Source of the DNA: Bradyrhizobium diazoefficiens
GTDB lineage: Bacteria; Pseudomonadota; Alphaproteobacteria; Rhizobiales; Xanthobacteraceae
Assembly (NCBI RefSeq): GCF_016616885.1
Contig: NZ_CP067102.1
Span: forward strand, 2,694,501 to 2,758,500
Direction: 5' to 3'
DNA length: 64,000 nt
Part shown: piece after piece, positions 14,274 through 40,480 of the stretch
Layout of the letters: every line of letters begins with the position of its first letter
Numbering within the stretch: position 1 is the stretch's first letter
Made by a program: the position numbers and the translations under genes
Notes under the pieces: model-generated
Database searches by the model: none
What the model was told of the DNA's origin: nothing
The model's input: the letters and a program-made list of their open reading frames with translations, nothing else

Positions 14274-14288
14274 GATACGGTCCGTTCG

Positions 14289-16671: not shown

Positions 16672-16737
16672 GCACTCAGGCGGCACCACAGTCGGGGTGC
16701 GATCCCGGTCGCCTTCCCTCGAACCAAGGTAAGTCGC

Positions 16738-23100: not shown

Positions 23101-23465
23101 CGATGGTGGAGGGAGATAGAGTCCAATTGCAACAGGTGCTCCTGAATTTGATCATCAACGCAATCGAAGCCATGACCATGAGTGGCGTCGGTGAGGGGCC
23201 GCGCGAATTGTCGATCAGCAGCGGGATCGCCGACTCGGGTGGCGTGCTTGTCACCGTATGTGACTCGGGTCCGGGACTGACGCCAGCAGGTCGCGATCGC
23301 CTTTTCGAGACGTTCTACACAACCAAGCCGAGCGGTCTGGGGTTGGGCTTGTCGATCTGTCGTTCGATCGTCGAGGCCCATGGCGGCCGCTTGTGGGCGA
23401 GCGCGAACGTTTCCCGAGGCGCCATTTTTCAGTTCACAGTGCCTGCGGTAGTGCCCCTGTCTTGA
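17127..23465 (+). CDS. Giant trifunctional Ser/Thr kinase-like / AAA ATPase / PAS histidine kinase
   Basis: About 2112 residues from a TTG that overlaps the preceding stop. Order: eukaryotic-type kinase domain (~60-300) with HKDIKPSN at 149; AAA/STAND-type ATPase with Walker A GYSGIGKS at 352-359 and Walker B FLDDLQWLD at 480-488; a long helical TPR-like region (~700-1310); GAF (~1322-1481); three PAS domains (~1492-1855); HisKA with H1894 in SIAHEVKQP; HATPase_c (~1990-2110, GLGLGLSI). The DFG metal-binding motif reads TGFG (G170 instead of Asp) and no VAIK lysine is evident, so the N-terminal domain is probably a pseudokinase. The C-terminal half closely resembles the amber-interrupted kinase at 7318-9834. 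No membrane segment is seen. Confidence 0.9.
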   Translation: MNAAPSARPETRHLDQVTRKNGLGPDDNKGLQILWQDGERVFCRGWRLDDDEKVRAVLVVVPAGEHPSPGILARFAHECALKDELDATWAVPPLELLHESASIMLVLDDSCGEPLERLIGAPMEIGSFLHLTIGIAAVLGKAHQRGLVHKDIKPSNIVVDRRTGEVRLTGFGIASRLPRERQSLDPPETIAGTLAYMAPEQTGRMNRSIDSRSDLYSLGVTLYQMLTGALPFSAADPMEWVHCHIARKPVSPGERLESLPAPLSQIVMKLLAKTAEDRYQTAAGLERDLQRCLGMWERARHIEDFSLCEHDMPDRLLIPEKLYGRESEVDTLVAAFDRIIKSGAPELVLVSGYSGIGKSSVVNELQKVLVPPRGLFAAGKFDQYKRDIPYSTLVQAFQSLVRPLLGKSDIELASWRGAFLEALEPNAGLITELIPELKLIIGDPPPVPELAPQQALSRFQSVFRRFIGVFARPEHPLALFLDDLQWLDAATLDLLEDLLGRSELQHLMLIGAYRDNEVDAAHPLRRKLEAMKHVGAKVEEIALAPLAPEHLEQLIADALRCESVRAADLAELLYQKTAGNPFYVIQFLYSLAEEDLLRLDHEAATWCWELDRIRAKSYTDNVVDLMVAKLTRLPAETQQALQQFACLGNVAASALLSTVLGSSEERLHAALWPAARLELVVRLESSYKFIHDRVQEAAYSLIPEPLRAQAHLRIGRLLVAQTPPERREEAIFEIVGQLNRGAALITLREERDELAALDLIAGRRAKGATAYASALIYLNAGVALLAKDSWERRRELAFTLELNRAECEFLTGQLSAADGRLAALSSRATTTVEQALVACLRIDVCTALDQSDRAVLVCLDYLRHVGIEWSPRPQDEEAHREYERIWSQLGSRAIEELIDLPLMTDPASLATVDVLSKIFPSALITDANLASLSVCKAVGLSLEHGNCDASCLTYVWFARIAGPRFGDHEAGFRFGQLGYELVERRGLRRFEASTYLCFSVYVVPWMKHVRDCRDLLRRAFEAANRIGDLMYAGYTCNNLNSDLLFAGEPLLDVQGEAENSLAFAGKARFGPVIDYITPQLALIRMLRGLTPEFGCFDDGQFDELRFEDYLSRNPALALAACWYWIRKLQARYIAGDFVTAIDAASKAQRLLWTTSSFFEEAEFHFYGALAKAAYRDSASADERAQHLDALAAHHKQLQVWAANCPENFENRAALVGAELARLEGRKLDAEHLYEQAIQSARANGFLHTEALANELAARFYAARGFEKISRVYLQDARYCFLRWGAGGKVRQLDELYPELGKQEPVPSPTGTIATPVEHLDLATVIKVSQAISGEIVLEKMLDTLMRTAIAQAGAERGLLILSHAAEQWIAAEATTSGETILVEIRDAPVTGSVLPETVLHYVLRTRESVIVDDAAIQPSFLADPYIRQREARSILCLPLINQAKLSGVLYLENNLAPRVFAPARIAVLKLLASQAAVSLENTRLYRDLELREAKIRRLVEANIIGICISTRDGGIIEANDAFLRIVGYDREDLVAGRVQWMDLTAPESLERTALALAELDSTGTIQPFEKEYFRKDGSRVPVLVGVAAFDEERQLVAFVLDLTERRRSEQELRESEERFRTLVQFSFDAYWETDAQHRFIRQEFAESVSDAPATGSELGKTRWEVPHLEPDEDAWCKHRETLDAHLPFRDFELARPTPDGGKRYVSVSGLPVFDETGRFIGYRGVGRHITERKRAEEELRASEARFRTFVDHATDLFMLHRDDGTILDVNRQACEALGYSRDELIGMAPSAFDPDANAAFMRHMRERIEASEIVTYESRSRRRDGTTFPVEIHVREFSQGGQRLAISLARDITDRKRAEAEARESDRRNREMQMELAHANRVATMGHLTASIAHEVKQPIAATMTNAQAALRFLDGPMMNIDEVRQILHDIVRDGNRAGEVISRIRDLVKKAPSRRDRWEINGAVSEVIELTRGETATNSVSVHTDFAGGLPMVEGDRVQLQQVLLNLIINAIEAMTMSGVGEGPRELSISSGIADSGGVLVTVCDSGPGLTPAGRDRLFETFYTTKPSGLGLGLSICRSIVEAHGGRLWASANVSRGAIFQFTVPAVVPLS

Positions 23466-23467
23466 CG

Positions 23468-23496
23468 TGCTCGCGCGCGATCCTGCCGCGAGCGCG
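23468..23496 (+). terminator. GC-rich hairpin after the giant kinase gene
   Basis: GTGCTCGCG (23468-23476) pairs with CGCGAGCGC (23488-23496) with one G-U pair and an 11-base loop, two bases after the stop codon. There is no clear T-run, so it may be a mild terminator or a 3'-end stabiliser between two converging genes. Confidence 0.3.
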
Positions 23497-23597
23497 CCTG
23501 CAAGGTCTGGATTAGGCAGCGTTCGGCCCGCGATCGACGCTCGGACCATCTTGATCTTTGCCGCATCAGTCGAAGTAGCGGAAGGCCTTTTCGGGGA

Positions 23598-24281
23598 CTA
23601 CTCCGCTGCAATACGGCTGCCCTGTATGGGCAGGATTCGTTCGTGCGCGTTTCTCTGAGGTTCGCAGCACGACGGAAAGGTGAGAATTGATCTCGTTCCC
23701 GCCGTTCCAAACTGGTGATCGAGCTTTCCGGCAAGAGTTTTGGCGAGTTCGCGGACGACGTTCAGGCCTCGGCCAGGTTGTATTATGGCTGGAGCCGATC
23801 CGTTGTCGAGCACCCTGCATTCTGCGAACGGTCCCGCCCGGTACAACTCGACGCGAATTTCGCCGCTCCCGTTAGCAAAGGCGTGCCTGGCCGAGTTGGT
23901 TATGAGCTCGTAGACAATCAGACCCAGTCGCCAGCATTGGTCCGACTGCAATTGCAGTGGCGACGTGGCGAGCACCAGCTTTATCTTCGCATGATCGAGC
24001 CTGGACCGGCGGATCGACGCGCATAGTTCCTCAAGATACGCTGCTGCGTCCACGAAAGCGTGATATTCCGGCCTCTGCATGGCGCGATGGACGTCGACAA
24101 ACCTGTGAAGCAGTTCAGAGACCCTTGTCAGGGCGGTCTTGACCTCCTCGTTGTCGGAATGAACTGCAGCGTGAGCAACGATGCCGATCACACAGGCAAA
24201 CTCGTTCTTGACCCTGTGGCTGAGCTCGTTCAGCAGCGTGAGTTCTTCCAGGCAAGGCAATTCGATAGCTGGCTCCATCAT
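23598..24281 (-). CDS. Stand-alone HisKA_2/HWE-type histidine kinase
   Basis: 227 residues from the ATG at 24281, preceded by CGGAG; an upstream ATG at 24317 has no such site. The phospho-acceptor motif is NELSHRVKNEF, typical of the HisKA_2 subclass. The ATPase domain shows ELITNSARHAF and VLDNGSAPA, and the GRGLNVVRELA segment. There is no sensor domain and no membrane segment, so input must come from a partner protein or the domain acts as a phosphotransferase. It converges on the giant kinase, with 132 bases between stops. It belongs to a different subclass from the other four kinases here. Confidence 0.85.
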   Translation of the reverse strand: MMEPAIELPCLEELTLLNELSHRVKNEFACVIGIVAHAAVHSDNEEVKTALTRVSELLHRFVDVHRAMQRPEYHAFVDAAAYLEELCASIRRSRLDHAKIKLVLATSPLQLQSDQCWRLGLIVYELITNSARHAFANGSGEIRVELYRAGPFAECRVLDNGSAPAIIQPGRGLNVVRELAKTLAGKLDHQFGTAGTRSILTFPSCCEPQRNAHERILPIQGSRIAAE

Positions 24282-24876
24282 CGTGTGCTCCGGACCCGCA
24301 AGACGCCGGCGCCCCATTCATCGAAGGGCGGCTTCACTGTACGCGCCGCATCGAGATCGAGATCGTCCAGTCTGATGCGATTGCGTCCACACACAAGGCC
24401 GTTCATCGGCTTCTCCTGCTTCCTTGAAATTCGACCGATCTGTTCAGTCGCTGATCGTGATCAGGCCTGAGTAGTAGCCCATTGAGCCGCGAGGTCCATT
24501 ATACCCGGGGGAGACCGGATCGACACGTTTGCTGTCGTAATCAAACCGAGGTATCGGGATGTCGGAGAGCTCGCGAGCGTGCTCGTGAATAGGCGCGGGG
24601 GCCGGTGGCTGATTGGCGCCGTCAGCCACTCCATCATTGATCCGCATGGAGGCTTTCCAGCTCGCCGATTCAAACGCCATGGATCTGGATCGCTCTAACA
24701 GCGAGCCACCTTACGCCGTGTACTCGACTTGTTGCCAAATCCTTCCATGACGAGCTCGCAGACCGCTTGCTGCTGCTTCGTCGAGGCGCTTGAACATCCG
24801 CGCATATTACCTCCCTTGCATCTCAAGTCATTCGTCGCAAACCGGCGATTTCCCGTGGATCATTTCTCCGCTCTGA
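24282..24876. other. Mostly non-coding stretch with one doubtful small frame
   Basis: 595 bases between the stand-alone kinase and the end of the next minus-strand gene. Apart from the doubtful frame at 24444-24680, nothing here resembles a gene. The segment before 24281 should contain the kinase promoter. Confidence 0.4.
24444..24680 (-). CDS. Possible small hypothetical protein
   Basis: A 78-codon frame from the ATG at 24680. The product is proline-rich in the middle (NQPPAPAPIHEH) and ends GPRGSMGYYSGLITISD. No ribosome-binding site is clear and I recognise no family. The aromatic and glycine-rich end looks more protein-like than a chance frame, but support is weak. Confidence 0.3.
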   Translation of the reverse strand: MAFESASWKASMRINDGVADGANQPPAPAPIHEHARELSDIPIPRFDYDSKRVDPVSPGYNGPRGSMGYYSGLITISD

Positions 24877-25332
24877 TCAGTGAGTGAGCGAAGATTGACC
24901 CCGTATGTGTAGTGGGGCATGAACGGGAAACGGCTGTGCCACCGATAGCGCAGTGTGTTCATCGGTTTCCAAAGCGATCTTTTGCGCAAGCATGATGTCG
25001 CCGGCGACCAGCGATCCCCTGGGCACAAAACACCAGCCGATTACTGGGCAGTGTTCTTCGCTGATTTCAACGACGTTCGCTGCCCGGCCGTAACGAATGC
25101 GGTATCGCTTCCCAGTGTCGCAGCCGATAACGTCGAACCAGTTGCTAGCATCAAGTTGCGCGCGCTGCTCAGGCAACAGCCATTCTCTCAGGAGCGTCAT
25201 GCCGCGGTCCTCGCGAACGTCTTTGCTGGTGAGGGCACGGCTTAGGGCGACGCAGCGCTCGCAGAAACCCCGCCCAACTATCCAACGCCTGCGTATAGCC
25301 CTTGCCGCAGTGACAAGCCTATCCGGCAACAT
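24877..25332 (-). CDS. Conserved hypothetical protein, rhizobial type
   Basis: 151 residues from the ATG at 25332; the conserved part may begin only at MTLLREWLLPEQ (residue ~45). The core reads QRAQLDASNWFDVIGCDTGKRYRIRYG, then CPVIGWCFVPRGSLVAGDIMLAQKIALE. This pattern is repeated in many Bradyrhizobium genomes as a protein of unknown function. Two cysteines frame the central strand region. No signal peptide or membrane helix is obvious. It starts 12 bases after the stop of the 25345-25566 gene, forming a two-gene operon. Confidence 0.7.
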   Translation of the reverse strand: MLPDRLVTAARAIRRRWIVGRGFCERCVALSRALTSKDVREDRGMTLLREWLLPEQRAQLDASNWFDVIGCDTGKRYRIRYGRAANVVEISEEHCPVIGWCFVPRGSLVAGDIMLAQKIALETDEHTALSVAQPFPVHAPLHIRGQSSLTH

Positions 25333-25344
25333 GTTCGGCCGCCG

Positions 25345-25566
25345 TTAGCCGCCGACGAGCCGCGGATAGAACAGCATCTCTTGCGCAGTCGGACCAAATG
25401 AGCGTGCAACCCTGGCTTCGCCGGCCGGGTCGCGAACAGCGGGCGTAAATCCCTTCCCGACAAGCGCCTTGAACCGTTCTTCTGCTTTGGCGAGCGCCTC
25501 AACGTCGTTCACGTCGAAGACGTGACGCGTGTCGCCCGTGTGATCCATTACAATCTGCGTCGGCAT
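25345..25566 (-). CDS. Conserved small hypothetical protein, rhizobial type
   Basis: A 73-residue protein beginning MPTQIVMDHTGDTRHVFD and ending AQEMLFYPRLVGG. The middle is a short helix (VEALAKAEERFKALVGKGF) followed by a strand region. A strong AGGAG site lies before the ATG. I recognise it as a frequent small protein of Bradyrhizobium genomes; no function is known. It leads the two-gene minus-strand operon with 24877-25332. Confidence 0.75.
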   Translation of the reverse strand: MPTQIVMDHTGDTRHVFDVNDVEALAKAEERFKALVGKGFTPAVRDPAGEARVARSFGPTAQEMLFYPRLVGG

Positions 25567-26062
25567 GCGCGGCTCCTGGATTTTTCAGCCCAGGGTAGCC
25601 TAGCCATATGGCCGCGAATGGCTTGGCTAAAATTAAGTCGGCTTAGCGAAAATTGCGCTAAAGGCCGGCTCGGGGATTGAGTTCGCGCTAATCCGACAGG
25701 CCGTTGAAAACTGCGAAGCGATCAGAGGGTTGAACCAACCGCGGACCAAAAGCCATAATGGCTCTAAAGCCAATGCATATCGTGGACGCTACGTACATCG
25801 GGTGGGCTACACTCTGCTGATGAAACGGACCAAGATGTTGCTACTCGTCCGCACTCTCCGTGAGATCATCCGCGACGGCGGAGTGACCGTTGTCGGTTAT
25901 CTCTATGCTGCCGGAGGTCCCGTAGGGACAAGAAATCGGACTGGAGGACAACCTCCAGTCCGACTTGCACGAATTCCAGGCGAGCACCGTTGTGGCCAAT
26001 GCACCTTATCGAAGGCCACCGGTTGATTTTGATGGCCGATCGGTGGCCCCGATCCGAACGTA
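25567..26062. other. Non-coding stretch with one perfect hairpin
   Basis: 496 bases between two minus-strand units. The AT-richer part at 25610-25680 has short related words (GGCTAAAATT, TTAGCGAAAATT, GCGCTAAAG) that may belong to the promoter of the 25345-25566 gene. The hairpin at 25936-25963 is the only strong structure. No protein-like frame is seen. Confidence 0.4.
25936..25963. terminator. Perfect 12-bp hairpin
   Basis: TCGGACTGGAGG (25936-25947), loop ACAA, then its exact complement (25952-25963). It lies about 100 bases past the stop of the IS-disrupted minus-strand gene, where a terminator would be expected. No T-run follows on either strand, so factor-independent termination is uncertain. 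Confidence 0.4.
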
Positions 26063-26214
26063 TCAGTACTCGCCGGGTCCTGGTTCGCAGGGGACATTGT
26101 TTCCGGTCCACGGCGCCGTCGCAAATGCGCCGACACGCGGTGCGGGATAGCAGGGACGGCCGCCCAGGTTCACTGCGGCTGGCGAAGTGGAGGCATTCGC
26201 GCGTTCTGCGAAAT

Positions 26215-26223
26215 GCCGCAAAG
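26215..26223 (+). repeat. Target-site duplication, left copy
   Basis: GCCGCAAAG, identical to 27648-27656, directly abuts the left end of the IS256-family element. Eight to nine bases is the usual duplication for this family. Confidence 0.9.
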
Positions 26224-27647
26224 GGTCGTGTCCCAATTGATGGTGTAGCTCGGTAGAGCAAAGCCGCCCGCACGCGCGCCGTCAAATAGCGCCGTAGCGG
26301 GCGGGCGGCTTTGCGGTGGTCATCGATGATTCGTCGGTAGGGTCGGGTTGCTGACACCAACCTGATTCGAGGAACCACCGATGACCGACGAGATGATGAA
26401 CCTGCGCGCGCTCATGGAGAAGACCCCTGATGCCGATCTGTTGCGCGAGATGATCGGCTTTGCGGCCCAGCGGCTGATGGAGCTGGAAGTCGAAGGCCAG
26501 ACCGGAGCGGGCTATGGCGAGAAGAACCCCGAACGTCTGGCCCAGCGCAACGGCTACCGCGACCGGATCTGGGAGACCCGCGCCGGCGCAGTTGAGCTGC
26601 GTATTCCCAAGCTGCGCAAGGGCTCCTACTTCCCGGGCTTCCTGGAGCCACGCCGCATGGCCGAGAAGGCGCTGACCGCCGTGGTGCAGGAAGCCTATGT
26701 GCAGGGCGTCTCGACCCGCTCGGTGGACGACCTCGTGCAGGCCATGGGCATGACCGGCATCTCGAAGAGCCAGGTGAGCCGGCTGTGCGGCGAGATCGAC
26801 GACAAGGTGAAGGCCTTCCTCGCCCGGCCGATCGAGGGCGACTGGCCATATCTGTGGATCGACGCCACCTACGTGAAGGTGCGCCAAAATGGCCGCATCG
26901 TCTCGGTCGCGGTGATTATCGCGGTCGGCGTCAACAGTGACGGCCGCCGCGAAGTGCTCGGCATGGACATCGGTCCCTCCGAAGCCGAGACGTTCTGGAC
27001 GGCATTCCTGCGCAAGCTTGCTCGCCGCGGCCTGCGTGGCGTCAAGCTGGTCGTCTCCGACGCTCACGAGGGCATCAAGGCCACCGTCGCCAAGGTGCTC
27101 AACGCCACCTGGCAGCGTTGCCGCGTCCACTTCATGCGCAACGCGCTGGCGCATGCCGGCAAGAGTGGGCGGCGCGTCGTCTCCGCCTTCATTGCCACCG
27201 CGTTCGCCCAGGACGATGCCGAGGCCGCGCGAACCCAATGGCGGAAGGTCGCCGATCAACTCCGCCCCAAGCTGCCCAAGCTGGCCGGCTTCCTCGACGA
27301 AGCGGAGACCGATGTGCTGGCCTACATGACATTCCCGCCGCAGCATCGAACCAAGCTGCACTCGACCAACCCGATCGAGCGCCTCAACGGCGAGATCAAG
27401 CGGCGCACCGAGGTGGTCGGCATCTTCCCCAACGAGGATGCCATCGTCCGCCTCATCGGTGCGATCCTGCTCGAGCAGAACGATGAATGGGCCGTCCAAC
27501 GTGCCCGCTACATGACGCTGGAAACCATCGCGCCGTTGAGCGATGATCCAACCGTCAGCCTTCCGGCTATCGCCAGCTGACCAGTCCGGCCCTTGCCGGC
27601 GAGCGCGGTGTCCCACCGCCAGTTACACCACTCCCTGGGACACGATC
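26224..27647 (+). mobile_element. IS256-family insertion sequence, complete, 1424 bp
   Basis: The ends are 27-bp imperfect inverted repeats (26224-26250 and 27621-27647) sharing TCGTGTCCCA and GGTGTA. They are flanked by the 9-bp direct repeat GCCGCAAAG. One transposase gene fills the interior on the plus strand. The intact ends, intact duplication and open transposase frame indicate a recent, probably still mobile copy. Its insertion interrupts the minus-strand gene 26063-27741. Confidence 0.93.
26381..27580 (+). CDS. IS256-family transposase (mutator type)
   Basis: 399 residues, the usual length for the family. The DDE catalytic core is visible: D in [14 protein letters not shown] in [13 protein letters not shown], and E in the C-terminal [15 protein letters not shown] helix, with the C/H-rich [11 protein letters not shown] block between. 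The N-terminal part ([22 protein letters not shown]) carries the DNA-binding portion. It cuts and joins the element's ends to move it. It starts 157 bases inside the left end and reads from its own promoter. Confidence 0.95.
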
Positions 27648-27656
27648 GCCGCAAAG
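27648..27656 (+). repeat. Target-site duplication, right copy
   Basis: GCCGCAAAG, the partner of 26215-26223, directly after the right terminal repeat of the insertion sequence. Confidence 0.9.
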
Positions 27657-27741
27657 CGATGTGATGCTCGCGAGCGATGGCAGGAGTCGAAAGCATGGCG
27701 ACCGCGATCAGGCCGGTCGACAGGAGCGTCAGGTTCATCAT

Positions 27742-28829
27742 GGTGAGTCTCCGCTTGTTGGTGGAAGCCGAAGGGGGCTTGGCTTTCCGGAGACGGATGT
27801 CGTTCGTTGAGCCTCGTGCGCCAGTAAACTTAACGTTAGCCTTCAAGCGCCAACAATCGAATGCACGGCCTCAGCCGAATTCGCGAGGCCGCATCTCGCA
27901 GACTATGCCGGTCCGTTAGCGGTGTGTGGTGCCTACGAGTATCGCGACGCTGTGGCTGTCACACGATGTCCTTGTGTCGACCGAGTGACCTTTGCCTTCG
28001 GGCATTGGTGCGCTGCGGCCCCGCTCGTTGCAAGGCCGTCTTCATTTGGAAATGGCGGCCAACCTATTGAGATTGTTAGGGCGTGTTTTCGACCGTTTTT
28101 CCAAACGCGCGTTGAAATCATTGAATAATCAAACTGATTTTGATTCCGCCATTCGGAGGTTCGATCCCTCCCGCCCCAGCCAGCAATTAAGCTGCTGAGT
28201 TCGTTATGTAAGCGGCTCTATTCCTGCCAGTTTTTTGGACGCGTTTGGAAACGGAGCTTCGCTCGGTCCAGAATCGAGCTAAACGGCGTCATGCAATTAT
28301 ATTGATGATATATCAGCTTACCTCCGTGGCTTCATCCCAACATATATCGCGAAAGCTACTCGGGGCGGGTCTGTTACCTCCTCATCGTAGAATAGGATAT
28401 TGCGGCGAACAAATCGGACACCAATCGAAATGATCCACTTGTGCGCAATTGGCGCGTGCCGCAATTCGCTCAGCGGATAGCTCGGGGGCGAGTCGCTCTC
28501 CCTTCGCCGATCTCACCTAAATTCCACTGGAAAATGTGGAGTGATGTCGTTGCTCCTTGGATCTGACCACTGGGAAACTCTAATCTCTTCTCGGGTCTCC
28601 GCATTGAACTGCAACGTCCGCACGAGCCTCCCCGGTTGAACGCGCCTGGGCCGCGCGTTGTCTCCTGCGAAACGGCAGGTCTTTTGCCAAAATTAAAAAT
28701 TATCAGGCTTGATTCTGACATCAGGGAGCGCAATCTCAGCAGCCCCGCAGCAACTTCGCCCTGGCCGTCTCGTTGACGTTAGCTGAGGGCAGGTGCGCTG
28801 GCGATCCAGCCAGTGAAAGGAGGATCCCC
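27742..28829. other. Long gene-poor stretch containing an attachment-site repeat
   Basis: Almost 1.1 kb with no convincing gene. It contains the promoter side of the disrupted secreted-protein gene and the tRNA-Gln attachment repeat at 28044-28182. About 650 bases of mixed, AT-richer sequence follow up to the strong AAAGGAGG site of the DUF5132 gene. This composition is typical of a junction between integrated elements. A trace around 28410-28450 reminded me of IS-end sequence but is too short to call. Confidence 0.45.
28044..28182 (+). repeat. Attachment-site-like repeat ending in tRNA-Gln 3' half, copy 1
   Basis: ATTTGGAAATG at 28044, TTTTCCAAA at 28097, then the 3' half of a tRNA-Gln(UUG) gene at 28136-28182 (anticodon loop TTTTGAT, T-arm GGAGGTTCGATCCCTCC, acceptor strand CGCCCCAG, then CCA). 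The 5' half of the tRNA is absent. The same three blocks recur with identical spacing at 35476-35614, and the tRNA parts differ by one base. This is how the displaced 3' end of a tRNA looks after integration of a tRNA-targeting element. Confidence 0.8.
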
Positions 28830-29123
28830 ATGGCTTTTTTTGAGGACATCTTCAAAGGTGGTAATATTGTCACCGGGCTGGCCATAGGTATCGGCGCCGG
28901 AGTCGTGGCGCCGGCACTTATCCCCGTCCTCAGGCCGATCGCAAAAACGGTCATTAAGGCCGGGCTCGTCGCCTACGATCAAGGTCGGGTCGCATTGGCA
29001 GAGCTCAATGAGCAGACCGGCGACGTGCTGGCCGAGGCTCGGTCTGAGCTTGCCGAACAAACCGACCAAGAGGAAAAATCGAAAAGGTCGAGAAAGTCGG
29101 AAGCTGCTCATCAGGGCACGTAG
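28830..29123 (+). CDS. DUF5132 small membrane protein next to a P-type ATPase
   Basis: 97 residues from the ATG at 28830, after an excellent AAAGGAGG site. A glycine-rich hydrophobic helix (about residues 11-32, VTGLAIGIGAGVVAPALIP) is followed by an amphipathic helix. The tail is charged and Glu-rich (GDVLAEARSELAEQTDQEE), then basic at the end. The ATPase gene starts 96 bases downstream. The design (one membrane helix plus an acidic cytoplasmic tail, encoded just before a metal ATPase) parallels the actinobacterial PacL/DUF1490 proteins that stabilise and supply their ATPase. That parallel is my inference. Confidence 0.8.
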   Translation: MAFFEDIFKGGNIVTGLAIGIGAGVVAPALIPVLRPIAKTVIKAGLVAYDQGRVALAELNEQTGDVLAEARSELAEQTDQEEKSKRSRKSEAAHQGT

Positions 29124-29219
29124 CTTTCGAATTGAATTAATCCCGGCCAGCTTGCATGCAGCGATTTGATCGCGGCGCAGCGGGGTTGTGTCACTCGGCA
29201 CGCTACGGGTCCGAGGGCG

Positions 29220-32200
29220 ATGAGTCTTGTTGTTCCATCAAACGAAGGGGCGATAGTTCCGCCGTCGTTGCGGAACCCGCAAACCCAAATGCCCATCTCG
29301 ATCGTGCCGCTGCACACGGCGGTGGCCGGACGCGTTCGGCTGAAGATCGAAGGTATGCGTGGCGCGCCGGCAATTGCGACCCTATTGGAGCGGGGATTCA
29401 CCGGGATGTCTGGCATCCGTGACGTCTCGGCCAGCGCCCTCACTGGCAACATCCTCATCCATTACGAGGACTCGATCTCGATCGATCAGCTCGTCGAACG
29501 GATAAGCGGACTGCTCCTGGGCGAGATCACGCCCGCCGTAGACGATCCGGCCGAGCTCCCGTGGCATACAATTGAGACGGGAGCCATCGCGTCCGAACTC
29601 GACACCTCCTGTTCGGACGGCCTATCGAGCGCGCGGGTGACGGAACGATTTGCTCAAGGGCTTGGTAATTCAATCCCGCTGCTGCATCAGCGCTCGGAGC
29701 TCAGTATTTTTCTCGATCAGTTCCAGAGCATGCCAGTGGCACTCTTGGCCGGGGTCGCCGTCGTTTCAGTCGTGACCGGGACGTTGCTCGAGGCCGGGGC
29801 GATCATGGCTGTCGTGGCGCTCAACGCCGCTATCGGGTTTACAACTGAAAATCAGGCTGAGCAGACCATCCGGAGCCTCGGAGCCCCCGCGTCGCTGACC
29901 GCGCGCGTGGTGCGCGACGGATCGGAGATGGATGTACGCGCCGACCTGCTCGTCCCTGGCGATCTCGTCCTTCTCCGGCGCGGGAGCGTTGTCTCCGCCG
30001 ACGGCAGACTCGTAAGCGCGCGCGCGCTCACTATCAGCGAGGCTGCTCTCACTGGTGAGAGCTTGCCGGTCGTAAAATCAGTCGAAACTGTCCCTCACGG
30101 GGCGGCGCTCGCTGACCGGATGAACATGGTCCATCGGGGGACCATCGTGACAGGCGGGAGTGGAACGTTTGTCGTTGTGGCGACCGGGGCGAGAACCCAG
30201 CTCGGACGTATCCAGCGGCTTGTCGGCGCAACCAACACACCCGAAACTCCGATGCAACGACATCTCGGCGAGCTCGGAGAACAACTCGTCTGGGCCACAC
30301 TCGCAGCAAGCGCTGCCGTATTCGGTGTGGGATGGCTGCGGGGGCTGGCGGTCCTCCAGCTGGTGCGTTCGTCGCTATCGGTAGCGGTCGCGGCTGTTCC
30401 GGAAGGGCTGCCGATGGTTGCCACGACGACGCTCGCCCTTGGCGTCGAGGAGATGCGGCAGCAGGGAATTCTGGTCCGACGGCTCGAAGCACTGGAGACG
30501 CTGGCCTCCGTCGATGTCATTTGCTTCGACAAAACGGGGACGCTGACCCACGGCTCCATGTCATTGGAAGTCGTCGCTATCGGTGACCGCGTCTGCGGCC
30601 GACGGGAGAACGGCCTAGTGGACCAGAGTGGGCTGGTTGCCCGACCGGAGCAGGACCGTCGTCTTCGTATGCTGCTGTTGGTCGGAGCTCTTTGCAGCGA
30701 GACCGAGGTAGAGGAGCGCGACGGGCAAATGCAGCTCAGCGGCTCAGCAACTGAAATTGCGCTCGTTCAGGCAGCACTCGATCACGACATTGACGTGAGC
30801 GAGCTGCGGCGCCGTTACGTAAGGCGGTCGATTCAGCATCGCACCGAGGCCTACAGGTTCATGGCAACGACGCATGCTGACGAAGCTCGCGTCTTGATCG
30901 CGGTGAAGGGCAGCCCCGGCGAGGTGTTGGCACGTTGCGCGTTTGAAGCATTGCCTGACGGTACTCGGCAAATTCTCACCGCGGCACGGCGCGCTCAGAT
31001 CGAAGCTCAAAATGCCGAGATGGCTGAGCAGGCACTTCGGGTGCTGGGAATGGCGTACCGTGAATTACAGGTGCCTAGTGCCGATCTTGAGGCAGGCGAG
31101 ATACAAATAGAAGAACTGATATGGAGCGGCCTTGTCGGACTTGCCGATCCGGTGCGGTCCGGCCTTCCCGCGCTGATGCAGAAGCTGCATCACGCTGGCA
31201 TCCAGACCATCATGCTGACTGGCGATCAGAGTACGACGGCGCGCGCAGTGGCGGAACGAATTGGCCTTAGTTCAGATGGTCAGGTCAGGATTATCGATAC
31301 GGCAGACCTTAACCACATAGCGCCTCTCGAACTCGCTGCCAAGGCGCGCGAGGCGCATGCCTTCGCACGAATCAGTCCCGGGCAGAAGCTTCAGATCGTG
31401 CGTGCCCTTCAGGAGGCGGGGTCCGTGGTGGCGATGATCGGGGATGGCATCAATGATAGCCCGGCGCTGCGTGCGGCTAACGTTGGGATGGCTATGGGAC
31501 GAAACGGAGATGCAGCAGCACGAGAAGTCGCCGACATCTTTTTTGCGAATGACGATCTTGCGTCATTGCCGCTCGCCATCGAGCGAGGCCGTGGCACCTA
31601 CACCAGTATCCGCAATGCGGTTCACTACATCATCAGCAGTAACACGAGCGAGATCCTGCTGATGCTGGCGGGGGCCGCTGCCGGCTTTGGTGAGATGCTC
31701 TCGCCAATTCAGCTCCTATGGATCAATCTCATCTCCGATGTCCTTCCCGCGATCGGTCTCGCTATGGAGCCTATCGATCCCGACGTGATGGAGCGCGGAC
31801 CGCGCGCCGCCGATGAACCGATAATCCGATCCGACCAATTCTCCCGCCTCGGCAGCGAAGCCGCGGTCCTCACGGCAAGCGCGTTCGGGACGGCGGTATT
31901 CGGTGCGATGCGTCACGGCTTCAACTCGCCGCAGGGGAGAACAATGGCTTTTGGCAGTTTGGCCGTGGGCCAACTTCTGCACACTCTCAACTATCGCTCG
32001 TCCAAGACAAGCGCACTCGAACCAAGTGCGCCCTGGTCGCAGTCACGTTTGGTGCAGATCATTGCCGGCTCGGTCGCCGCGCAACTCGCGGCCATGCTCA
32101 TTCCGGGCGTGCGAAACGCGCTTAACGTCGCACCGCTCGGCTTGGTAGATGCCGGTGCCATGATTGCAGGCGGAGTGCTGCCGAGCGCAATAGCGCAAAT

Positions 32201-32372
32201 GCGTAGCTCTGAGGCGCGCGCCGGGCTGAAACGGTTGCGCTTCCACAGGCCTGATATCGATAGTCGTTCGGAGACCTCATTGGAGGTCGCTAAACGACTG
32301 GAGTGGAAATGGGCCACCGCTGTGTCGCTGTCTATTCCGAAGGTGCAACGAGGAGCGGCTGGTGACCTATAG
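29220..32372 (+). CDS. Cation-translocating P-type ATPase, P2-like, with N-terminal HMA-like domain
   Basis: 1050 residues from the ATG at 29220. The N-terminal ~100 residues include an HMA-like fold (VAGRVRLKIEGM, then SALTGNILIHYED) without the CxxC metal site. Core motifs follow in order: phosphorylation D437 in CFDKTGTLTHG, KGSPGEVL nucleotide site, MLTGDQ, GDGINDSPAL near 741. The membrane helix before the P-domain carries PEGLP rather than CPC, so it belongs with P2-type (Ca/Mg/Na/K) pumps such as the mycobacterial CtpI/CtpH group, not P1B heavy-metal pumps. Transported ion unknown. Its 3' end overlaps the converging HMA-like gene by 41 bases. Confidence 0.92.
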   Translation: MSLVVPSNEGAIVPPSLRNPQTQMPISIVPLHTAVAGRVRLKIEGMRGAPAIATLLERGFTGMSGIRDVSASALTGNILIHYEDSISIDQLVERISGLLLGEITPAVDDPAELPWHTIETGAIASELDTSCSDGLSSARVTERFAQGLGNSIPLLHQRSELSIFLDQFQSMPVALLAGVAVVSVVTGTLLEAGAIMAVVALNAAIGFTTENQAEQTIRSLGAPASLTARVVRDGSEMDVRADLLVPGDLVLLRRGSVVSADGRLVSARALTISEAALTGESLPVVKSVETVPHGAALADRMNMVHRGTIVTGGSGTFVVVATGARTQLGRIQRLVGATNTPETPMQRHLGELGEQLVWATLAASAAVFGVGWLRGLAVLQLVRSSLSVAVAAVPEGLPMVATTTLALGVEEMRQQGILVRRLEALETLASVDVICFDKTGTLTHGSMSLEVVAIGDRVCGRRENGLVDQSGLVARPEQDRRLRMLLLVGALCSETEVEERDGQMQLSGSATEIALVQAALDHDIDVSELRRRYVRRSIQHRTEAYRFMATTHADEARVLIAVKGSPGEVLARCAFEALPDGTRQILTAARRAQIEAQNAEMAEQALRVLGMAYRELQVPSADLEAGEIQIEELIWSGLVGLADPVRSGLPALMQKLHHAGIQTIMLTGDQSTTARAVAERIGLSSDGQVRIIDTADLNHIAPLELAAKAREAHAFARISPGQKLQIVRALQEAGSVVAMIGDGINDSPALRAANVGMAMGRNGDAAAREVADIFFANDDLASLPLAIERGRGTYTSIRNAVHYIISSNTSEILLMLAGAAAGFGEMLSPIQLLWINLISDVLPAIGLAMEPIDPDVMERGPRAADEPIIRSDQFSRLGSEAAVLTASAFGTAVFGAMRHGFNSPQGRTMAFGSLAVGQLLHTLNYRSSKTSALEPSAPWSQSRLVQIIAGSVAAQLAAMLIPGVRNALNVAPLGLVDAGAMIAGGVLPSAIAQMRSSEARAGLKRLRFHRPDIDSRSETSLEVAKRLEWKWATAVSLSIPKVQRGAAGDL

Positions 32373-32820
32373 CGCGTCGGTGAGCCTCATGCCTTGCAGC
32401 TTGAACGATGGCATCGATGACCCATTCGATTAATTGTACACCGACCTGCTTGGTGGTGATCGCCACAATAAATTTGAGTGTCACCGAGGCGAAGGTGAGT
32501 GCCCCCGGGAGGGCGTCAATTCCATCATTCGGTCGCGCAATGGAGGCCAGACGACCGCCCGTCGACAGTACGCCCTTTGTTTCGTGCATTTCCAATCCGA
32601 GAAACCGGCGGTGTTGCGCCGTCAAGTCGAATCCTTTCCGACACTCGATGATCACCCCGGCCGTGAGAGGATTTGAGTGCACGCGGACAACATCGGGATG
32701 TTCGACGAGAACCCGCTCAAGTGCAGCGAAATAAGCCTGCTGTCGCCGCCGCTGAGGTATTTTGATCCGAATGCGTGTCGCTGTGCGATGGACAACGAAA
32801 GCCCGGGTTAGTGCGTGCAT
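32332..32820 (-). CDS. Cys-less HMA-like domain protein
   Basis: 162 residues, with AAGGA upstream of the ATG. The first ~75 residues form a ferredoxin-like HMA fold (TATRIRIKIPQRR, helix, VVRVHSNPLTAGVIIEC) lacking the CxxC pair. A linker and a hydrophobic C-terminal region follow (ALTFASVTLKFIVAITTKQ, then LIEWVIDAIVQAA). It shares its N-terminal pattern with the proteins at 32994-33608 and with the ATPase N-terminus. An accessory role to the pump is inferred from that shared domain and from position. Confidence 0.75.
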   Translation of the reverse strand: MHALTRAFVVHRTATRIRIKIPQRRRQQAYFAALERVLVEHPDVVRVHSNPLTAGVIIECRKGFDLTAQHRRFLGLEMHETKGVLSTGGRLASIARPNDGIDALPGALTFASVTLKFIVAITTKQVGVQLIEWVIDAIVQAARHEAHRRAIGHQPLLVAPSE

Positions 32821-32993
32821 GATCTGCGGTCCTTAGCGTTGGCAAGCCACGCTGGCGGGCCGGACACTGCACCCGATTTGACGAATCTAATGTGACATGA
32901 AGCCTATCTTTTTCTTAGTTCCGATGTTCTCCCAAGTGGGAACCTGGTCTACGCCAAATGGCAAGCGCCCTGGATGCGGAAAGTCCGGCAATC

Positions 32994-33608
32994 CTAATAG
33001 CCGGTCTGCTGATCTCCCGAGACGCTCGGGGCCGTCACCCCCGAGTTGTAGGATGCGGTCGCACCGCGATCGACTGACGCCAGCTGACGCGTGATCAGGG
33101 AATAGAACAAGAGTGAGGAGGCCGACCCGAGCAACTGGCCCCTTAGCACTTGGACAATGCCAAGCAGCACAAACCCTGCTGCGATCTCTGGACGGCCGAG
33201 AATCCGCTGCGCTCCATACGCGTTCCAGAAATTCTCGGCAGCATTGCCGGTCAGCTGGCCCCTTGCGACCTGGAATAGTGCCAATCCGCTCAATCCCGTG
33301 GCCGCTGTGCTGCGCAATCCGGAACAGGGCCGTCGGCGAGTGGATGGAGCTGGAGCCTCTTTGGGCTCCTCTGGTCCAATTTCGAAAAGCCCTTGTTCGG
33401 TGGCCGCCGCGGCAATCGCCTGCGCCGATCCATCGTGACGAATAATGATGCTTCCGGTGAGGGGAATCGCATCGAGTTTTTCGACGCCGGGAAGCTTTGA
33501 GAGCGCCTGGACTATGCCATGGAAGAACGAGACGTCCCCGCGACGTGCTGGAATTCGAAGGCGCAGCCGTCCCGGGATCTGATGCTGGATGGTAGCAATT
33601 GGGGTCAT
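32994..33608 (-). CDS. HMA-like domain membrane protein
   Basis: 204 residues from the ATG at 33608 (an upstream in-frame ATG at 33656 gives 220). The first ~75 residues are the same Cys-less HMA-like domain (HQIPGRLRLRIPARRG, helix, KLDAIPLTGSIIIRHDG). After a proline-rich linker come two hydrophobic helices (ATGLSGLALFQVARGQ and IAAGFVLLGIVQVLRGQ) joined by a short loop, and a polar tail. Both helices end in a related ARGQLTG / LRGQLLG phrase, suggesting an internal duplication. It is encoded upstream of 32332-32820 on the same strand with 173 bases between. Confidence 0.75.
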   Translation of the reverse strand: MTPIATIQHQIPGRLRLRIPARRGDVSFFHGIVQALSKLPGVEKLDAIPLTGSIIIRHDGSAQAIAAAATEQGLFEIGPEEPKEAPAPSTRRRPCSGLRSTAATGLSGLALFQVARGQLTGNAAENFWNAYGAQRILGRPEIAAGFVLLGIVQVLRGQLLGSASSLLFYSLITRQLASVDRGATASYNSGVTAPSVSGDQQTGY

Positions 33609-33711
33609 CTCGACACGCGCCTCCACTCGGTTCAATCGCGTCCAGGTGCAGCTCAAGAAAGCCGATCATACATGCAGGGGGTAACGAAGGCAGCACCGAA
33701 GCGAGAGCCAA

Positions 33712-35001
33712 ATGTCTCCAGAGCACGCACCGGCATCGCCGCGCAACCCGCTCCCACTATTGACAAGCGAATCGGACCGGGCGGCACGCAACCGGTTAAG
33801 ACGAAACCGGATCGTAGCCAGCACCTTGCTCGCCGGCATGGGAGGTATATTCGCTTTGACACGGTTGGTTCCAGAGCCCGGCTTCGGGACGCTGCTGATC
33901 CAATCCGGCGCGGAAGCGGGCATGGTGGGTGGTATCGCCGATTGGTTCGCCGTAACGGCGCTCTTTCGCCATCCGCTGGGACTCCCTGTTCCGCATACCG
34001 CGATCATTCCCAAGAACAAGGACAGGATCGGCCGGACGATCGGGCATTTCATCGAACGCAATTTTCTGACGCGGGATGTGCTTCTGCCGAAGCTGCGCCA
34101 AATGGGTGTTGGGGCACGCTTTGCAGGCTGGCTCGCGGCGCCAAGCACTGCACCCCTGATCGCAGACTCGATCACGGCAATGCTGCCCTATCTCATCCAC
34201 TCGCTACGAAACCCGGATTTTCATGAGTTCGTGCAGCGGATTTTGAGCGACCAGCTTCTTCAGGCGGATTTCGCGCCGATGATTGCACGCGGCCTTCGTC
34301 TTCTTACGGCGAGCGAGGAAGCAAATGCTCTGTTCGAACGCATCAGCGAGGTCGCGAGCGACCGGCTTGAGAAGAACCGCGACCAGATCGAAAAGGTGGT
34401 GGCCGCGCGCAGCCGCTGGTGGATCCCGAAGGCCATCGATCGCCGGATTGCGACCGCCATTATCAATGGTGTCACCGAGTTGTTCGACGGCTTGTCTCAG
34501 CCGGACAGCGAAATCTCCTCGAGGTTTCGCGAGGCGCTCGCCTCGACAATCGACGACATGCTCAATTCACCGGAGCAGCGGGAAAAAATAAATGAGGGCG
34601 TGAGGCGTCTGCTGGCTCATCCCGAGGCGCAGGCTTGGGTCAGATCGGTTTGGGACGAACTCTGCCAGGCGATGCTCGACGACTTGGCGCAACCATCATC
34701 GCGCCTTCGACGAGGGCTCGAAAAGCCCATTTCGATTGTAGCTGAGGCGCTGGCGACTGACACTGTGATGCAGCGGCACATCGATGAAGTGATGGAGCAC
34801 TTGGCTGATTCCGTCATCGCGTGGCGCAGCGAGATCGGCTCTTTCTTCGCGGAGGTCGTGCGAAACTGGGATACGGCTACCCTTTCCGATCGCCTTGAAC
34901 TCGTTGTCGGAAGCGACCTCCAATATATTCGCATGAACGGTACCATCGTCGGAGCTTGTGCCGGCTGCCTCATATTCACCGTCGCCTGGCTTTTTGGGTA
35001 G
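33712..35001 (+). CDS. DUF445 (YjiN-like) membrane-anchored protein
   Basis: 429 residues. One membrane helix near the start (~35-58, VASTLLAGMGGIFALTRL) and one at the very end (IVGACAGCLIFTVAWLFG) bracket a long helical body. The DUF445 signature follows the first helix: AGMVGGIADWFAVTALFRHPLGLPVPHTAIIPKNKDRIG. Members are widespread inner-membrane proteins of unknown function. It is divergent from the HMA-like gene 32994-33608 with about 100 bases between the starts. Confidence 0.88.
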   Translation: MSPEHAPASPRNPLPLLTSESDRAARNRLRRNRIVASTLLAGMGGIFALTRLVPEPGFGTLLIQSGAEAGMVGGIADWFAVTALFRHPLGLPVPHTAIIPKNKDRIGRTIGHFIERNFLTRDVLLPKLRQMGVGARFAGWLAAPSTAPLIADSITAMLPYLIHSLRNPDFHEFVQRILSDQLLQADFAPMIARGLRLLTASEEANALFERISEVASDRLEKNRDQIEKVVAARSRWWIPKAIDRRIATAIINGVTELFDGLSQPDSEISSRFREALASTIDDMLNSPEQREKINEGVRRLLAHPEAQAWVRSVWDELCQAMLDDLAQPSSRLRRGLEKPISIVAEALATDTVMQRHIDEVMEHLADSVIAWRSEIGSFFAEVVRNWDTATLSDRLELVVGSDLQYIRMNGTIVGACAGCLIFTVAWLFG

Positions 35002-35015
35002 GCGCTCTATCGCCT

Positions 35016-35040
35016 TGAATCGGATGCTTCGTCCGATTCA
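35016..35040 (+). terminator. Hairpin downstream of the DUF445 gene
   Basis: TGAATCGGA (35016-35024), loop TGCTTCG, and TCCGATTCA (35032-35040) form a perfect 9-bp stem 15 bases after the DUF445 stop codon. No T-run follows. It lies between converging genes and probably serves both. Confidence 0.4.
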
Positions 35041-35085
35041 GTGCGAGCCGCACAAAGATCAGTGAAGCCACTCACTGAGACGACC

Positions 35086-35277
35086 CTAATCTCGAATGCC
35101 TTTAATCGACGGCTGTATAGTCATGCGATAGGCGACTAGCGCGTTGCCCTCAAACTCCTCCAAGACCTCATGACAGACAGGGCAGCGGTATTCGCCGGTG
35201 GCGCCGGGTCCCAACTGCAATTCAAGACGTCGAAAGCCCGCCCCGCACTCCGGACATGTCACGTCGGACTTTTTCAT
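35086..35277 (-). CDS. Small zinc-ribbon protein
   Basis: A 63-residue protein. CPECGAGF near the start and CPVCHEVLEEF about 25 residues later form a classic two-knuckle zinc ribbon. The rest is a short strand and a C-terminal tail (VAYRMTIQPSIKGIRD). Such ribbons are common in small rhizobial proteins; the partner is unknown. It is the last gene before the second attachment-type repeat at 35476-35614. Confidence 0.75.
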   Translation of the reverse strand: MKKSDVTCPECGAGFRRLELQLGPGATGEYRCPVCHEVLEEFEGNALVAYRMTIQPSIKGIRD

Positions 35278-35808
35278 ACGCCCTCCGTAAAATCAAAGGC
35301 GCACCTTTAACACAGGATTTGGCGGAACCTGGAATATACAGAGGTTTACTTCGGCGGTCGCGGCGCCATCGAATAGGAGTCATTTCGGGATGCATCTGAT
35401 CTTCGATCAACCGCGCTACTGAGGCGCGCAAGCTCCTCGTTATTCAGAGGCGATCCCCGGGAGAACCGCTTCCTTATTTGGAAATGCATGCTAAGCAATT
35501 GATATTATTAAAGGCCAATTCGGTCATATTTTCCAAATGCGCTCTGAAATCGTTGAATAACCGAACAGATTTTGATTCCGCCATTCGGAGGTTCGATTCC
35601 TCCCGCCCCAGCCAGATGTTTTGCTTCCCTGAAATTGCCGATCGCTGTGATACTCGACGCTTCGACGTTCCGAGCTTGACACTGTCGGACGAAAAGAACA
35701 GAAGTCGAACATGGCCGTCCATCACCCAGGGGCGGGCGGTGTCTCCGCCGCCCGCGCAAATCTGACCAGAGCGGAATCCCCCTGCACCGTGCCGAGGGCG
35801 AAGCACGG
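35278..35808. other. Gene-free junction between island and chromosome
   Basis: 531 bases with no convincing gene. The right-hand tRNA-Gln attachment repeat lies at 35476-35614. The remaining ~190 bases lead into the exonuclease gene and should hold its promoter. Confidence 0.5.
35476..35614 (+). repeat. Attachment-site-like repeat ending in tRNA-Gln 3' half, copy 2
   Basis: It has the same blocks as 28044-28182 at the same distances: ATTTGGAAATG at 35476, TTTTCCAAA at 35529, tRNA-Gln 3' half at 35568-35614 ending in CCA. The orientation is also the same. Genes to the right look like ordinary chromosome, so this is the best candidate for the right end (attR-like) of the island. Confidence 0.8.
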
Positions 35809-39211: not shown

Positions 39212-40480
39212 TTATTCGGTTGTGTCCATGTGGTTTCGGTCCACGACCCGCAGCGTTCGTCGCATCATGCCATCGACAATGGCCGCCGACTCGCTCGGAC
39301 GCAGATGGATCGTCGTGGACTTGAGCAACCATGGCAATACCGCTTGCTCGAGCCGCTCCTCATAGGCGGGCCGCATCATGTCGAATGCCTGCAGGCCGGG
39401 TCCTGCCAGGACGACATGGTGCGGGCGCAGCACGGATATCGTGGCCGCGACCGCCTCGGCAAGCGCGCGACCTGCCTGCTGGAAGACGTGCGCGAGACGG
39501 GGATCCCCGCTCCGTGCCCGCTCGTGCAGAAGGGCCATCTGCGCTTCGGAAGGCTGCTGCGATGCCGCTGGCGGCAAGTCGAGAAAGGTGCGGGCGTCGC
39601 GGTAGAGCGCATAGTCGGCGAGATGGGCCTCGATGCAGCCGCGCTGGCCGCAGCGGCATTGCGGGCCGTTCGATCCCAGCTTGGTGTGGCCGATCTCGCT
39701 GCCGGCGCCGGCGCCCAAACGCGCCTCGCCGTCGACCACGATGCCCATGCCGACGCCGTGACCGATCAGGATCAGGGCCATGAGGCCCTGCGCCAATGAC
39801 GGCTCCGCGGCGGCGAGAGCGAGCGCAACCGCGACGGCATCATTCGCCATCACGACTTCGGTGCCGAAAGCCTGATGCACCGGCTTCGCCAGATCGATGT
39901 CGGTGACGGACAGCGCCGGGCTCCACAGATGCCGGCCGGTGTCCGCGTTCACGATACCCTGGAGCGCAATCCCTATTCCCAACAGCCGATGGCGCGGTGT
40001 GGCCGTCGCCTCCAGCATCGCATTGATTTGCGCGATCACGAGGTCGCACAACGCGCCCGCATCGAGAGCCCGCGTCGCGATTTCGAGGCGTGATTGTGCC
40101 AGGCTGAAGCCGCTGAAATCCGCAATCAGTGTCTCGATCAGGTTCATGCGCAGCGAGACCGAGATGATGCGGCCGAACTCCGGGTTCAGGGTCAGCAGCA
40201 CGGCCGGCCGGCCACGGCGGCGGCCATTCAGCCCATCCGGATCCTCTTCGTCCGGGTCGTCGGACCATGAGGGTATCGCTGTCTCGGTCTCGCACAGCAA
40301 TTCCTCCGCGATCAGCCTGGACGTGAGGCCGGAAACGGCGGGGAAGCTCAGTCCCGTGCTCCGGGCCAGCTCCACACGTGGCAACGGCCCGTGGCGTCGC
40401 AGGACTTCCACCAGGCGGCCCCGGTTCGAGCCACGGGCCATGCCTGAAATTCGTCTCGGCGACTCGGTCTGGTCAATCAT
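39212..40480 (-). CDS. ROK-family transcriptional regulator
   Basis: 422 residues. An N-terminal winged helix (~20-85: LVEVLRRHGPLPRVELARSTG, then FPAVSGLTSRLIAE) precedes a ROK domain. The domain has its ATP-fold residues and the zinc motif CRCGQRGCIEAHL after EIGHTKLG. These regulators (XylR/NagC type) sense sugars and usually repress a neighbouring sugar operon. It is divergent from the ribose-type ABC transporter, and a 27-bp near-palindrome at 40488-40514 starts 7 bases from its start codon. It probably controls both itself and the transporter. Confidence 0.9.
   Translation of the reverse strand: MIDQTESPRRISGMARGSNRGRLVEVLRRHGPLPRVELARSTGLSFPAVSGLTSRLIAEELLCETETAIPSWSDDPDEEDPDGLNGRRRGRPAVLLTLNPEFGRIISVSLRMNLIETLIADFSGFSLAQSRLEIATRALDAGALCDLVIAQINAMLEATATPRHRLLGIGIALQGIVNADTGRHLWSPALSVTDIDLAKPVHQAFGTEVVMANDAVAVALALAAAEPSLAQGLMALILIGHGVGMGIVVDGEARLGAGAGSEIGHTKLGSNGPQCRCGQRGCIEAHLADYALYRDARTFLDLPPAASQQPSEAQMALLHERARSGDPRLAHVFQQAGRALAEAVAATISVLRPHHVVLAGPGLQAFDMMRPAYEERLEQAVLPWLLKSTTIHLRPSESAAIVDGMMRRTLRVVDRNHMDTTE

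Follow-up and report, generated by a model that had tools for sequence, protein, structure and literature searches.

Genomic islands that lack an integrase gene are known from several bacteria, and the means by which they move are often unclear. For the Bradyrhizobium strain USDA6T, Kaneko et al. (2011) described two tandem islands at trnQ-TTG, GI11 and GI12, with duplications of 47 bp and 39 bp, for which the accessible part of that account lists no integrase (PMC3927601); according to the same part, the fifteen islands of this genome showed no apparent similarity to one another in nucleotide sequence. At the ssrA gene of Dehalococcoides, 15 islands without an integration module have been considered possible cis-mobilizable elements, in addition to sixteen that possess a serine recombinase module (PMC3146451, accessible text). 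Here, we analyse a window of 64,000 nt (positions 2694501-2758500 of NZ_CP067102.1) from a Bradyrhizobium genome of 8.09 Mb in a single contig (G000), which contains part of a tandem array of three integrase-less elements, E1, E2 and E3, at tRNA-Gln(UUG). The comparisons were made with Bradyrhizobium genomes designated by G-numbers (265 in the genus-wide searches); G056 corresponds to USDA6T, as its coordinates agree with those of the published islands.

The array resembles GI11/GI12 in the tRNA gene used, the 3' duplications, the tandem arrangement and an unlisted integrase; to that account, in its accessible part, it adds common ends, a module shared between tRNA-Gln and tRNA-Lys, and an integrase gene behind tRNA-Gln (PMC3927601). 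The Dehalococcoides ssrA islands are likewise stacked in tandem at one RNA gene, and 15 of them lack the integration module, whereas no bounded member screened here gave an integrase, and the target here is a tRNA (PMC3146451, accessible text). The additive flexible islands of Alteromonas (PMC4119200), Actinomarinales (PMC7771536) and Methylopumilus (PMC10872708) are also bounded by tRNA fragments, differ in length and are stacked at tRNAs, but the accessible parts of these reports give neither conserved recombination ends nor a candidate integrase. A large Bradyrhizobium segment bounded by a tRNA gene and a partial copy has, by its description, the same type of boundary. The monopartite symbiosis integrative and conjugative element (ICE) of Bradyrhizobium can be likened to the array by its target, since it integrates at tRNA-Gln; it differs in being conjugative and about 0.68 Mb in size (PMC9174649, accessible text). 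Xer-dependent elements (IMEX) differ in that they insert at dif via the XerCD proteins of the host, whereas the target here is tRNA-Gln. No published report of the common ends, or of a DUF6538 integrase as the driver, was found in a search that left most subscription papers and preprints outside its reach; within it, DUF6538 as a topic yielded no paper at all. The common ends and the layout with an integrase behind the array appear to be new; tandem integrase-less islands at tRNA-Gln had already been published for USDA6T.

Three elements in tandem at tRNA-Gln(UUG)

The 47-nt 3' half of tRNA-Gln(UUG) occurs in four copies in the genome, all of them on the + strand. One belongs to the intact gene at genome positions 2631396-2631470, 63 kb to the left of the window, and three are displaced 3' halves that end at genome positions 2642279, 2722682 (window position 28182) and 2730114 (window position 35614). 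These displaced copies delimit, in tandem, E1 (10,809 bp), E2 (80,403 bp) and E3 (7,432 bp); the most distal one (35568-35614) has one mismatch. We read the repeats as displaced attachment sites of three integrase-less elements that were inserted successively at tRNA-Gln(UUG) by tandem accretion, an interpretation to which we assign a probability of about 0.75.

A previous sequence-only reading of the window had described the two 139-bp segments at 28044-28182 and 35476-35614 as direct repeats differing by a single mismatch. Their coordinates and layout hold, but the single mismatch is true only for the tRNA part (46/47 identical); the 92-bp arm agrees in 64/92 positions, and the whole segment in 110/139. 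Since the best other ungapped placement in the window, on either strand, reaches only 58/139 for the whole segment and 41/92 for the arm alone, the similarity of the two segments is not due to chance. That both copies are mere tRNA fragments agrees with ARAGORN, which calls no tRNA gene at either, and the intact gene does lie upstream on the same strand, as had been anticipated. An integrase expected beside it was found neither there nor in E1, E2 or E3. Where two related, nested insertions had been proposed, the 7.4-kb element and another one reaching to the left are indeed present, but there are three elements, and they stand in tandem and are not nested.

As in tRNA-targeted genomic islands, an intact tRNA is found at one end and a 3' fragment at the other, and E1 and E2 are absent from the same site in the relatives G003 and G031. 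An integrase gene of their own, which would be expected of such an island as well as of an ICE or an integrative and mobilizable element, was not found in the elements. With both attachment ends retained and no integrase detected, they resemble in structure a cis-mobilizable element (CIME), which would move together with a related element or by means of its enzyme.

In G003 and G031, E3 follows directly on the intact tRNA-Gln (92.0% and 90.8% identity, respectively, over about 7 kb), an arrangement of the kind that the sequence-only reading had foreseen for strains lacking the island. The chromosomal gene to the left of the tRNA, which we take to be acyl-CoA-dehydrogenase-like, is 91.4% (G003, 1,226 bp compared) and 92.4% (G031, 826 bp compared) identical. 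Because the divergence of E3 matches that of this flanking gene, E3 appears to be old at the site and not to have moved recently. Another element stands behind E3 in G031, and the right end of E3 is shortened in G003. In the simplest reading, E1 and E2 were inserted later, between the tRNA and E3; their loss in the relatives is the alternative.

A pair of loci from other species shows an insertion exactly inside tRNA-Gln. In the empty locus of G069, the tRNA is followed by an integrase gene, and in the occupied locus of G008 an integrase-less element of 8.7 kb lies between the two. To the right of tRNA position 29 and into the integrase gene, the two loci share 97.2% identity (747 bp), against 85.3% (532 bp) to the left. 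These boundaries, exact to the base, speak against the proposal that general recombination between tRNA fragments or common ends swaps or stacks segments without any site-specific enzyme. The common ends could indeed act as homology for such an exchange, but they are only 70-85% identical and enclose different cargo, and a short motif near the tRNA end has a preferred orientation (see below); we regard this explanation as very improbable.

Common ends and no integrase match

The left ends of E1-E3, i.e., about 250 bp after the intact tRNA, the first and the second fragment, are 71-74% identical to each other, and this sequence was not seen in the DNA behind the last fragment. The right ends (the last ~140 bp, comprising the ~92-bp arm and the tRNA 3' half) are 81-85% identical. 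Each element thus possesses a left and a right end of its own. No other long match was found among the elements in the 3-kb stretches compared. The cargo differs among E1-E3 despite these homologous ends.

In a 132-kb region, C[AG]TTTGGAAA and its inverse have eight exact matches, seven of which fall in element ends. The right arms of E1 and E2 each contain two copies in inverted orientation, and the left ends of E1 and E3 one copy each; departures from the exact motif are seen in the E2 left end and at the outer right site of E3 (Table 1). Repeated short sites in two arms around a tRNA core are the site layout of lambda-type tyrosine integrases, and the ends of the elements seem to be laid out in this manner. 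The short motif near the tRNA end occurs in one orientation in 43/112 left ends, among which are many leader-type ends, and in the other orientation in 0/112. It is found in 33 to 37/52 displaced right ends, in 0/58 intact genes and in 85/20,000 random stretches; the loci behind these counts were partly chosen by their ends. An RNA role of the left end was considered and rejected, as window positions 27900-28800 gave no Rfam match and the module described below no conserved fold; no Sigma-70-like promoter was found in the same stretch either.

Genus-wide, with up to three mismatches allowed and copies anywhere in the genome counted, the tRNA-Gln 3' half is present in 260/265 genomes, and a hand count of the search table gives at least two copies, at any genomic place, in 95/265. 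The right arm was recovered in 95/265 genomes as well (E ≤ 1e-18), whether or not the complete tRNA part accompanies it, and a left-end profile matches 132/265 (E ≤ 0.01), a number that includes matches confined to the second half of the profile. A second type of left end at tRNA-Gln (ATTGATATTACTC or similar) was seen at G010_158, G013, G020, G021_41041, G064, G087, G092 and G232_6021; in G064, G087 and G232, the right arm that accompanies it is the standard one.

Left-end positions ~136-250 constitute a module that recurs outside the tRNA-Gln elements, behind tRNA-Lys(CUU). In a sample of 20 loci selected by choice from weak matches plus two from the window's own genome, 14 of the 23 model matches in these 22 fetched loci are preceded at a short distance by a tRNA-Lys T-arm sequence, five of these loci with an intact tRNA-Lys(CUU) gene. 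The module was found in 54/391 genomes drawn from the family, 51 of them in Bradyrhizobium and three in three other genera. The tRNA-Lys islands of USDA6T served as a control: an integrase is listed for GI04, GI05 and GI07 and none for GI06 in the accessible part of the published account (PMC3927601). Of the four left ends searched, the module is present only at GI06, the one without an integrase, and GI04, GI05 and GI07 have a common right end of their own, unlike that of GI06. Because the ends differ, the module elements at tRNA-Lys are unlikely to descend from the integrase-bearing islands at this gene. The 86-kb GI06 also contains right ends of the tRNA-Gln type (G056 3250575-3250713 and 3259661-3259776), so an island of one tRNA family can harbour ends that belong to the other. 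In G017 (C1), G020 (C124), G024 (C111) and G033 (C1), a tRNA-Gln copy is followed 2.1-2.4 kb downstream by a tRNA-Lys 3' copy on the same strand, as if a small unit joined both targets.

For the integrase screen, 21 fully sampled bounded elements of 1.3-80 kb from 16 genomes, E1-E3 included, were screened with 42 integrase sequences in tblastn and with two profiles in all six frames; a further element, G243b, of which 2.4 kb was sampled, was left out. None of the 21 gave an integrase match by these queries and profiles, and both planted positive controls were recovered. The standard right arm is present in all 21, and a left end matching E1-E3 by BLAST in 17; G008, G064, G087 and G232b have a different left end. 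Likewise, 14 queries detected no integrase at 29 right-end loci of about 3 kb. PF00589 matches 13 places in the window's genome at E ≤ 0.001, none in or near the array; among the ten of these loci that were opened, two presumably resemble XerC/XerD and two presumably are IS91-associated recombinases. Integrases were encountered outside the bounded elements, namely beyond those of G232 and G243 and in the first tRNA-Gln element of G010, which has the second left-end type and a non-standard right end and is not among the 21. A helper phage was considered and rejected: the right-arm junction pattern has no exact match in viral_contigs, and the right arm is unmatched in phage records.

The elements were thus probably inserted by something other than an integrase of their own. 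A competing explanation regards them as relics, i.e., cis-mobilizable leftovers of ordinary islands that each lost its integrase and are now immobile. Against it stand 21 elements that all lack an integrase match and yet all retain the right arm, 17 of them with a recognisable left end, and the differing ends of the integrase-bearing tRNA-Lys islands. The absence of E1 and E2 from the site in G003 and G031 also speaks against it, as arrival after the split is simplest, even though loss is possible.

A candidate recombinase behind tRNA-Gln

In other Bradyrhizobium species, the gene for a tyrosine integrase of ~665 amino acids starts roughly 100 bp behind tRNA-Gln. The copy of G008 is open, encodes 670 amino acids with DUF6538 (PF20172) and PF00589, and lies directly behind the inserted 8.7-kb element, which has the standard right arm. 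When this protein was searched in the 265 genomes, 62 matched at E ≤ 1e-10, the weaker ones including other integrases, and 34 at E ≤ 1e-20. At 21 of the 30 best loci, the match is preceded, at a distance of 56-113 bp, by a tRNA-Gln 3' half, which belongs to an intact tRNA in 14 cases and is labelled displaced in 7. In this test the half is degenerate at the loci of G225, G236 and G043, although the right-arm search places a good copy at G043. Among 30 tRNA-Gln loci picked by the tRNA pattern alone, seven have the integrase leader directly behind the intact tRNA; these empty, leader-type loci were identified by reading the sequences and then aligned. The last tRNA copies in G043 and G046 adjoin the integrase gene or its remnant.

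On the conjugative Bradyrhizobium japonicum plasmid pS11L-1, an open gene for a tyrosine integrase stands behind a standard right arm and a tRNA-Gln 3' half; its product is 36% identical to the G008 protein (PF00589 at 25.7 bits, just below the cut-off of 27.1). This 641-kb plasmid also has a left end that retains a portion of the tRNA-Gln 3' half and, 78 kb away, a right end. It is possible that pS11L-1 is a vehicle for the elements. The plasmid copy and the six integrases that are open and near full length among the 30 loci (G008, G069, G076, G240, G050, G129) have kept R, HxxR or an equivalent, GH and Y, which we take to be the conserved residues of the enzyme. A search by sequence found no solved structure for the candidate.

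We infer the following mechanism for the insertion of the array elements. A tyrosine integrase supplied in trans would bind the repeated TTTGGAAA sites of both arms, recombination would occur within the 47-nt tRNA identity, and each new element would restore the tRNA and shift the older 3' halves rightward. That this enzyme is the DUF6538-type recombinase encoded behind tRNA-Gln, or behind the last element, in other species is a plausible suggestion, which we would place slightly below even odds.

A sharper form of this explanation is a platform akin to an integron, in which the integrase gene is stationary and the elements are cassettes captured between it and the tRNA. The similar tRNA-to-integrase spacing in the 21 loci is consistent with it, as is the integrase-less G008 element with its standard right arm, positioned exactly between the tRNA and an open integrase gene, and so are the tRNA copies that adjoin an integrase gene or remnant, namely the last ones in G043 and G046 and that of pS11L-1. 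The likeness lies in the layout of G008, where an integrase gene adjoins the insertion site, with an integrase-less segment between (integrons as treated in the accessible part of PMC4119200). In place of the IntI, attI and attC of integrons, the system considered here would have a candidate integrase with DUF6538 and PF00589, a tRNA 3' half, to which recombination maps, long arms and elements of up to 80 kb. The gene may instead simply be the integrase on the tRNA-proximal side of an old island of the conventional type, it does not co-occur significantly with the right arms, and it is open in just six of the 30 loci and was not found in the window's genome; we hold the platform to be a tentative idea, clearly short of even odds. 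Broader still, and in our view doubtful, is the possibility that a stationary DUF6538 integrase by tRNA-Gln captures integrase-less cassettes of 1-80 kb defined only by lambda-like arms, with a sister set at tRNA-Lys sharing the ~110-bp accessory site, so that a single pool of cassettes spanning the genus would be available to more than one tRNA.

Several observations weigh against successive insertion by an enzyme acting in trans. No excision or insertion was observed. E3 diverges between species to the same extent as the flanking chromosomal gene. PF00589 misses some real integrases, so the absence of an integrase rests on the queries used; the published integrase of USDA6T GI07, for instance, matches only an arm-binding domain (its open reading frame, next to the right end of GI07, was one of the sequences used as query in tblastn). 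In the window's genome, no homolog of the candidate reaches E ≤ 1e-10. To the right of 35614, only ~27 nt resemble the integrase leader, and tblastn with seven integrases over the 9.4 kb right of the array gave nothing better than E 0.18. The leader lacks the TTTGGAAA motif, no tRNA-Gln 3' half is near the gene at 9 of the 30 integrase loci opened, and 24 of these 30 are interrupted or partly matched. Finally, right arms are present in 14/34 genomes with the integrase and in 81/231 others (Fisher p 0.57; both sets were read by hand from the right-arm and integrase searches). The relic explanation gains from the missing homolog, the age of E3, the interrupted or partial state of the integrase gene at most loci opened, and the mismatch in the distal tRNA copy, and the Dehalococcoides ssrA islands without integration module were interpreted likewise (PMC3146451, accessible text). 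We nevertheless consider it unlikely and prefer successive insertion at tRNA-Gln by tandem accretion.

Cargo, flanking genes and biological meaning

The features of the window are compiled in Table 1. Pfam was run on ten open reading frames of the window from one scan, nine of them in E2, and revealed two-component/PAS kinases, a multicopper oxidase, cytochrome c and molybdopterin-binding domains in the right-hand 28 kb of E2. An insertion sequence had been noticed to the left of 35614, and a transposase gene is indeed present there. The N-terminal HMA_2 match (PF19991) of the P-type ATPase of E3 scores 28.0 bits, under the curated cut-off of 30. The 7.4-kb segment had been described as extending from a DUF5132 gene to one for a zinc-ribbon protein; DUF5132 was recovered, but no zinc ribbon was found in the E3 open reading frames scanned, of which the last clear gene encodes DUF445. 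Left of the window, E1 contains a complete Wadjet set JetA-JetD (PADLOC type 2 models) and also encodes a HipB-like regulator and a HipA-like protein.

Table 1. Features of the array and its surroundings in the 64,000-nt window
Feature	Window position	Strand	Remarks
Right-hand 28 kb of E2	1..28043	+	Bounded by tRNA 3' copies; whole E2 = genome 2642280-2722682
Mutator/IS256-type transposase	26381-27580		About 0.5 kb before E2 right arm
Right arm of E2	28044..28135	+	Homologous to right ends of E1 and E3
E2 right-arm motif CATTTGGAAA	28043-28052
E2 right-arm motif, inverted, TTTCCAAACG	28098-28107
Displaced tRNA-Gln(UUG) 3' half ending in CCA	28136..28182	+	E2/E3 boundary
Element E3	28183-35614		7,432 bp
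Left end of E3, first part	28183..28310	+	Homologous to DNA after intact tRNA (E1) and after first displaced copy (E2)
Motif CGTTTGGAAA in E3 left end	28242-28251
E3 left end, second part: module of ~110 bp	28316..28425	+	Model match genome 2722816-2722925
DUF5132 protein, E3 cargo	28773..29123	+	Pfam PF17195
P-type cation ATPase, E3 cargo	29166..32372	+	Pfam PF00122, PF00689, PF00702
HMA_2 protein, E3 cargo	32994..33656	-	Pfam PF19991
DUF445 protein, E3 cargo	33712..35001	+	Pfam PF04286; last clear gene of E3
Right arm of E3	35476..35567	+	ATTTGGAAA at 35476, inverted TTTCCAAATG at 35530-35539
Displaced tRNA-Gln(UUG) 3' half, last array copy	35568..35614	+
Stretch resembling tRNA-Gln-to-integrase leader of other species	35615..35641	+	Short; pairwise alignment; no integrase behind
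Chromosomal anchor right of array	39212..40480	-	Also directly behind array in G019

The anchor gene to the right of the array is one that we take to encode a ROK-type regulator. Between the last tRNA copy and this gene, window positions 35809-39183 contain a gene for a FAN1-HTH/VRR-nuclease/exonuclease protein and a second gene, presumably for a DinB-like polymerase. In G019, the end of the regulator gene lies ~20 bp from the last tRNA copy; because it nearly abuts that copy, the FAN1-type/DinB-like pair represents either an insertion here or a loss in G019. The sole tRNA call of ARAGORN in the window (38895-38983, - strand) has no identity; it is situated within the DinB-like gene and probably spurious.

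The cargo stacked at this site ranges from a Wadjet defence system and HipBA-like genes to a P-type ATPase cluster and a large signalling/oxidase block. With the ends, the target and a specific candidate recombinase now defined within a single well-studied genus, an integron-like or trans-acting mechanism is open to experimental test. Such a mechanism, if real, would account for the way in which Bradyrhizobium accumulates cargo behind one tRNA without machinery in each island.

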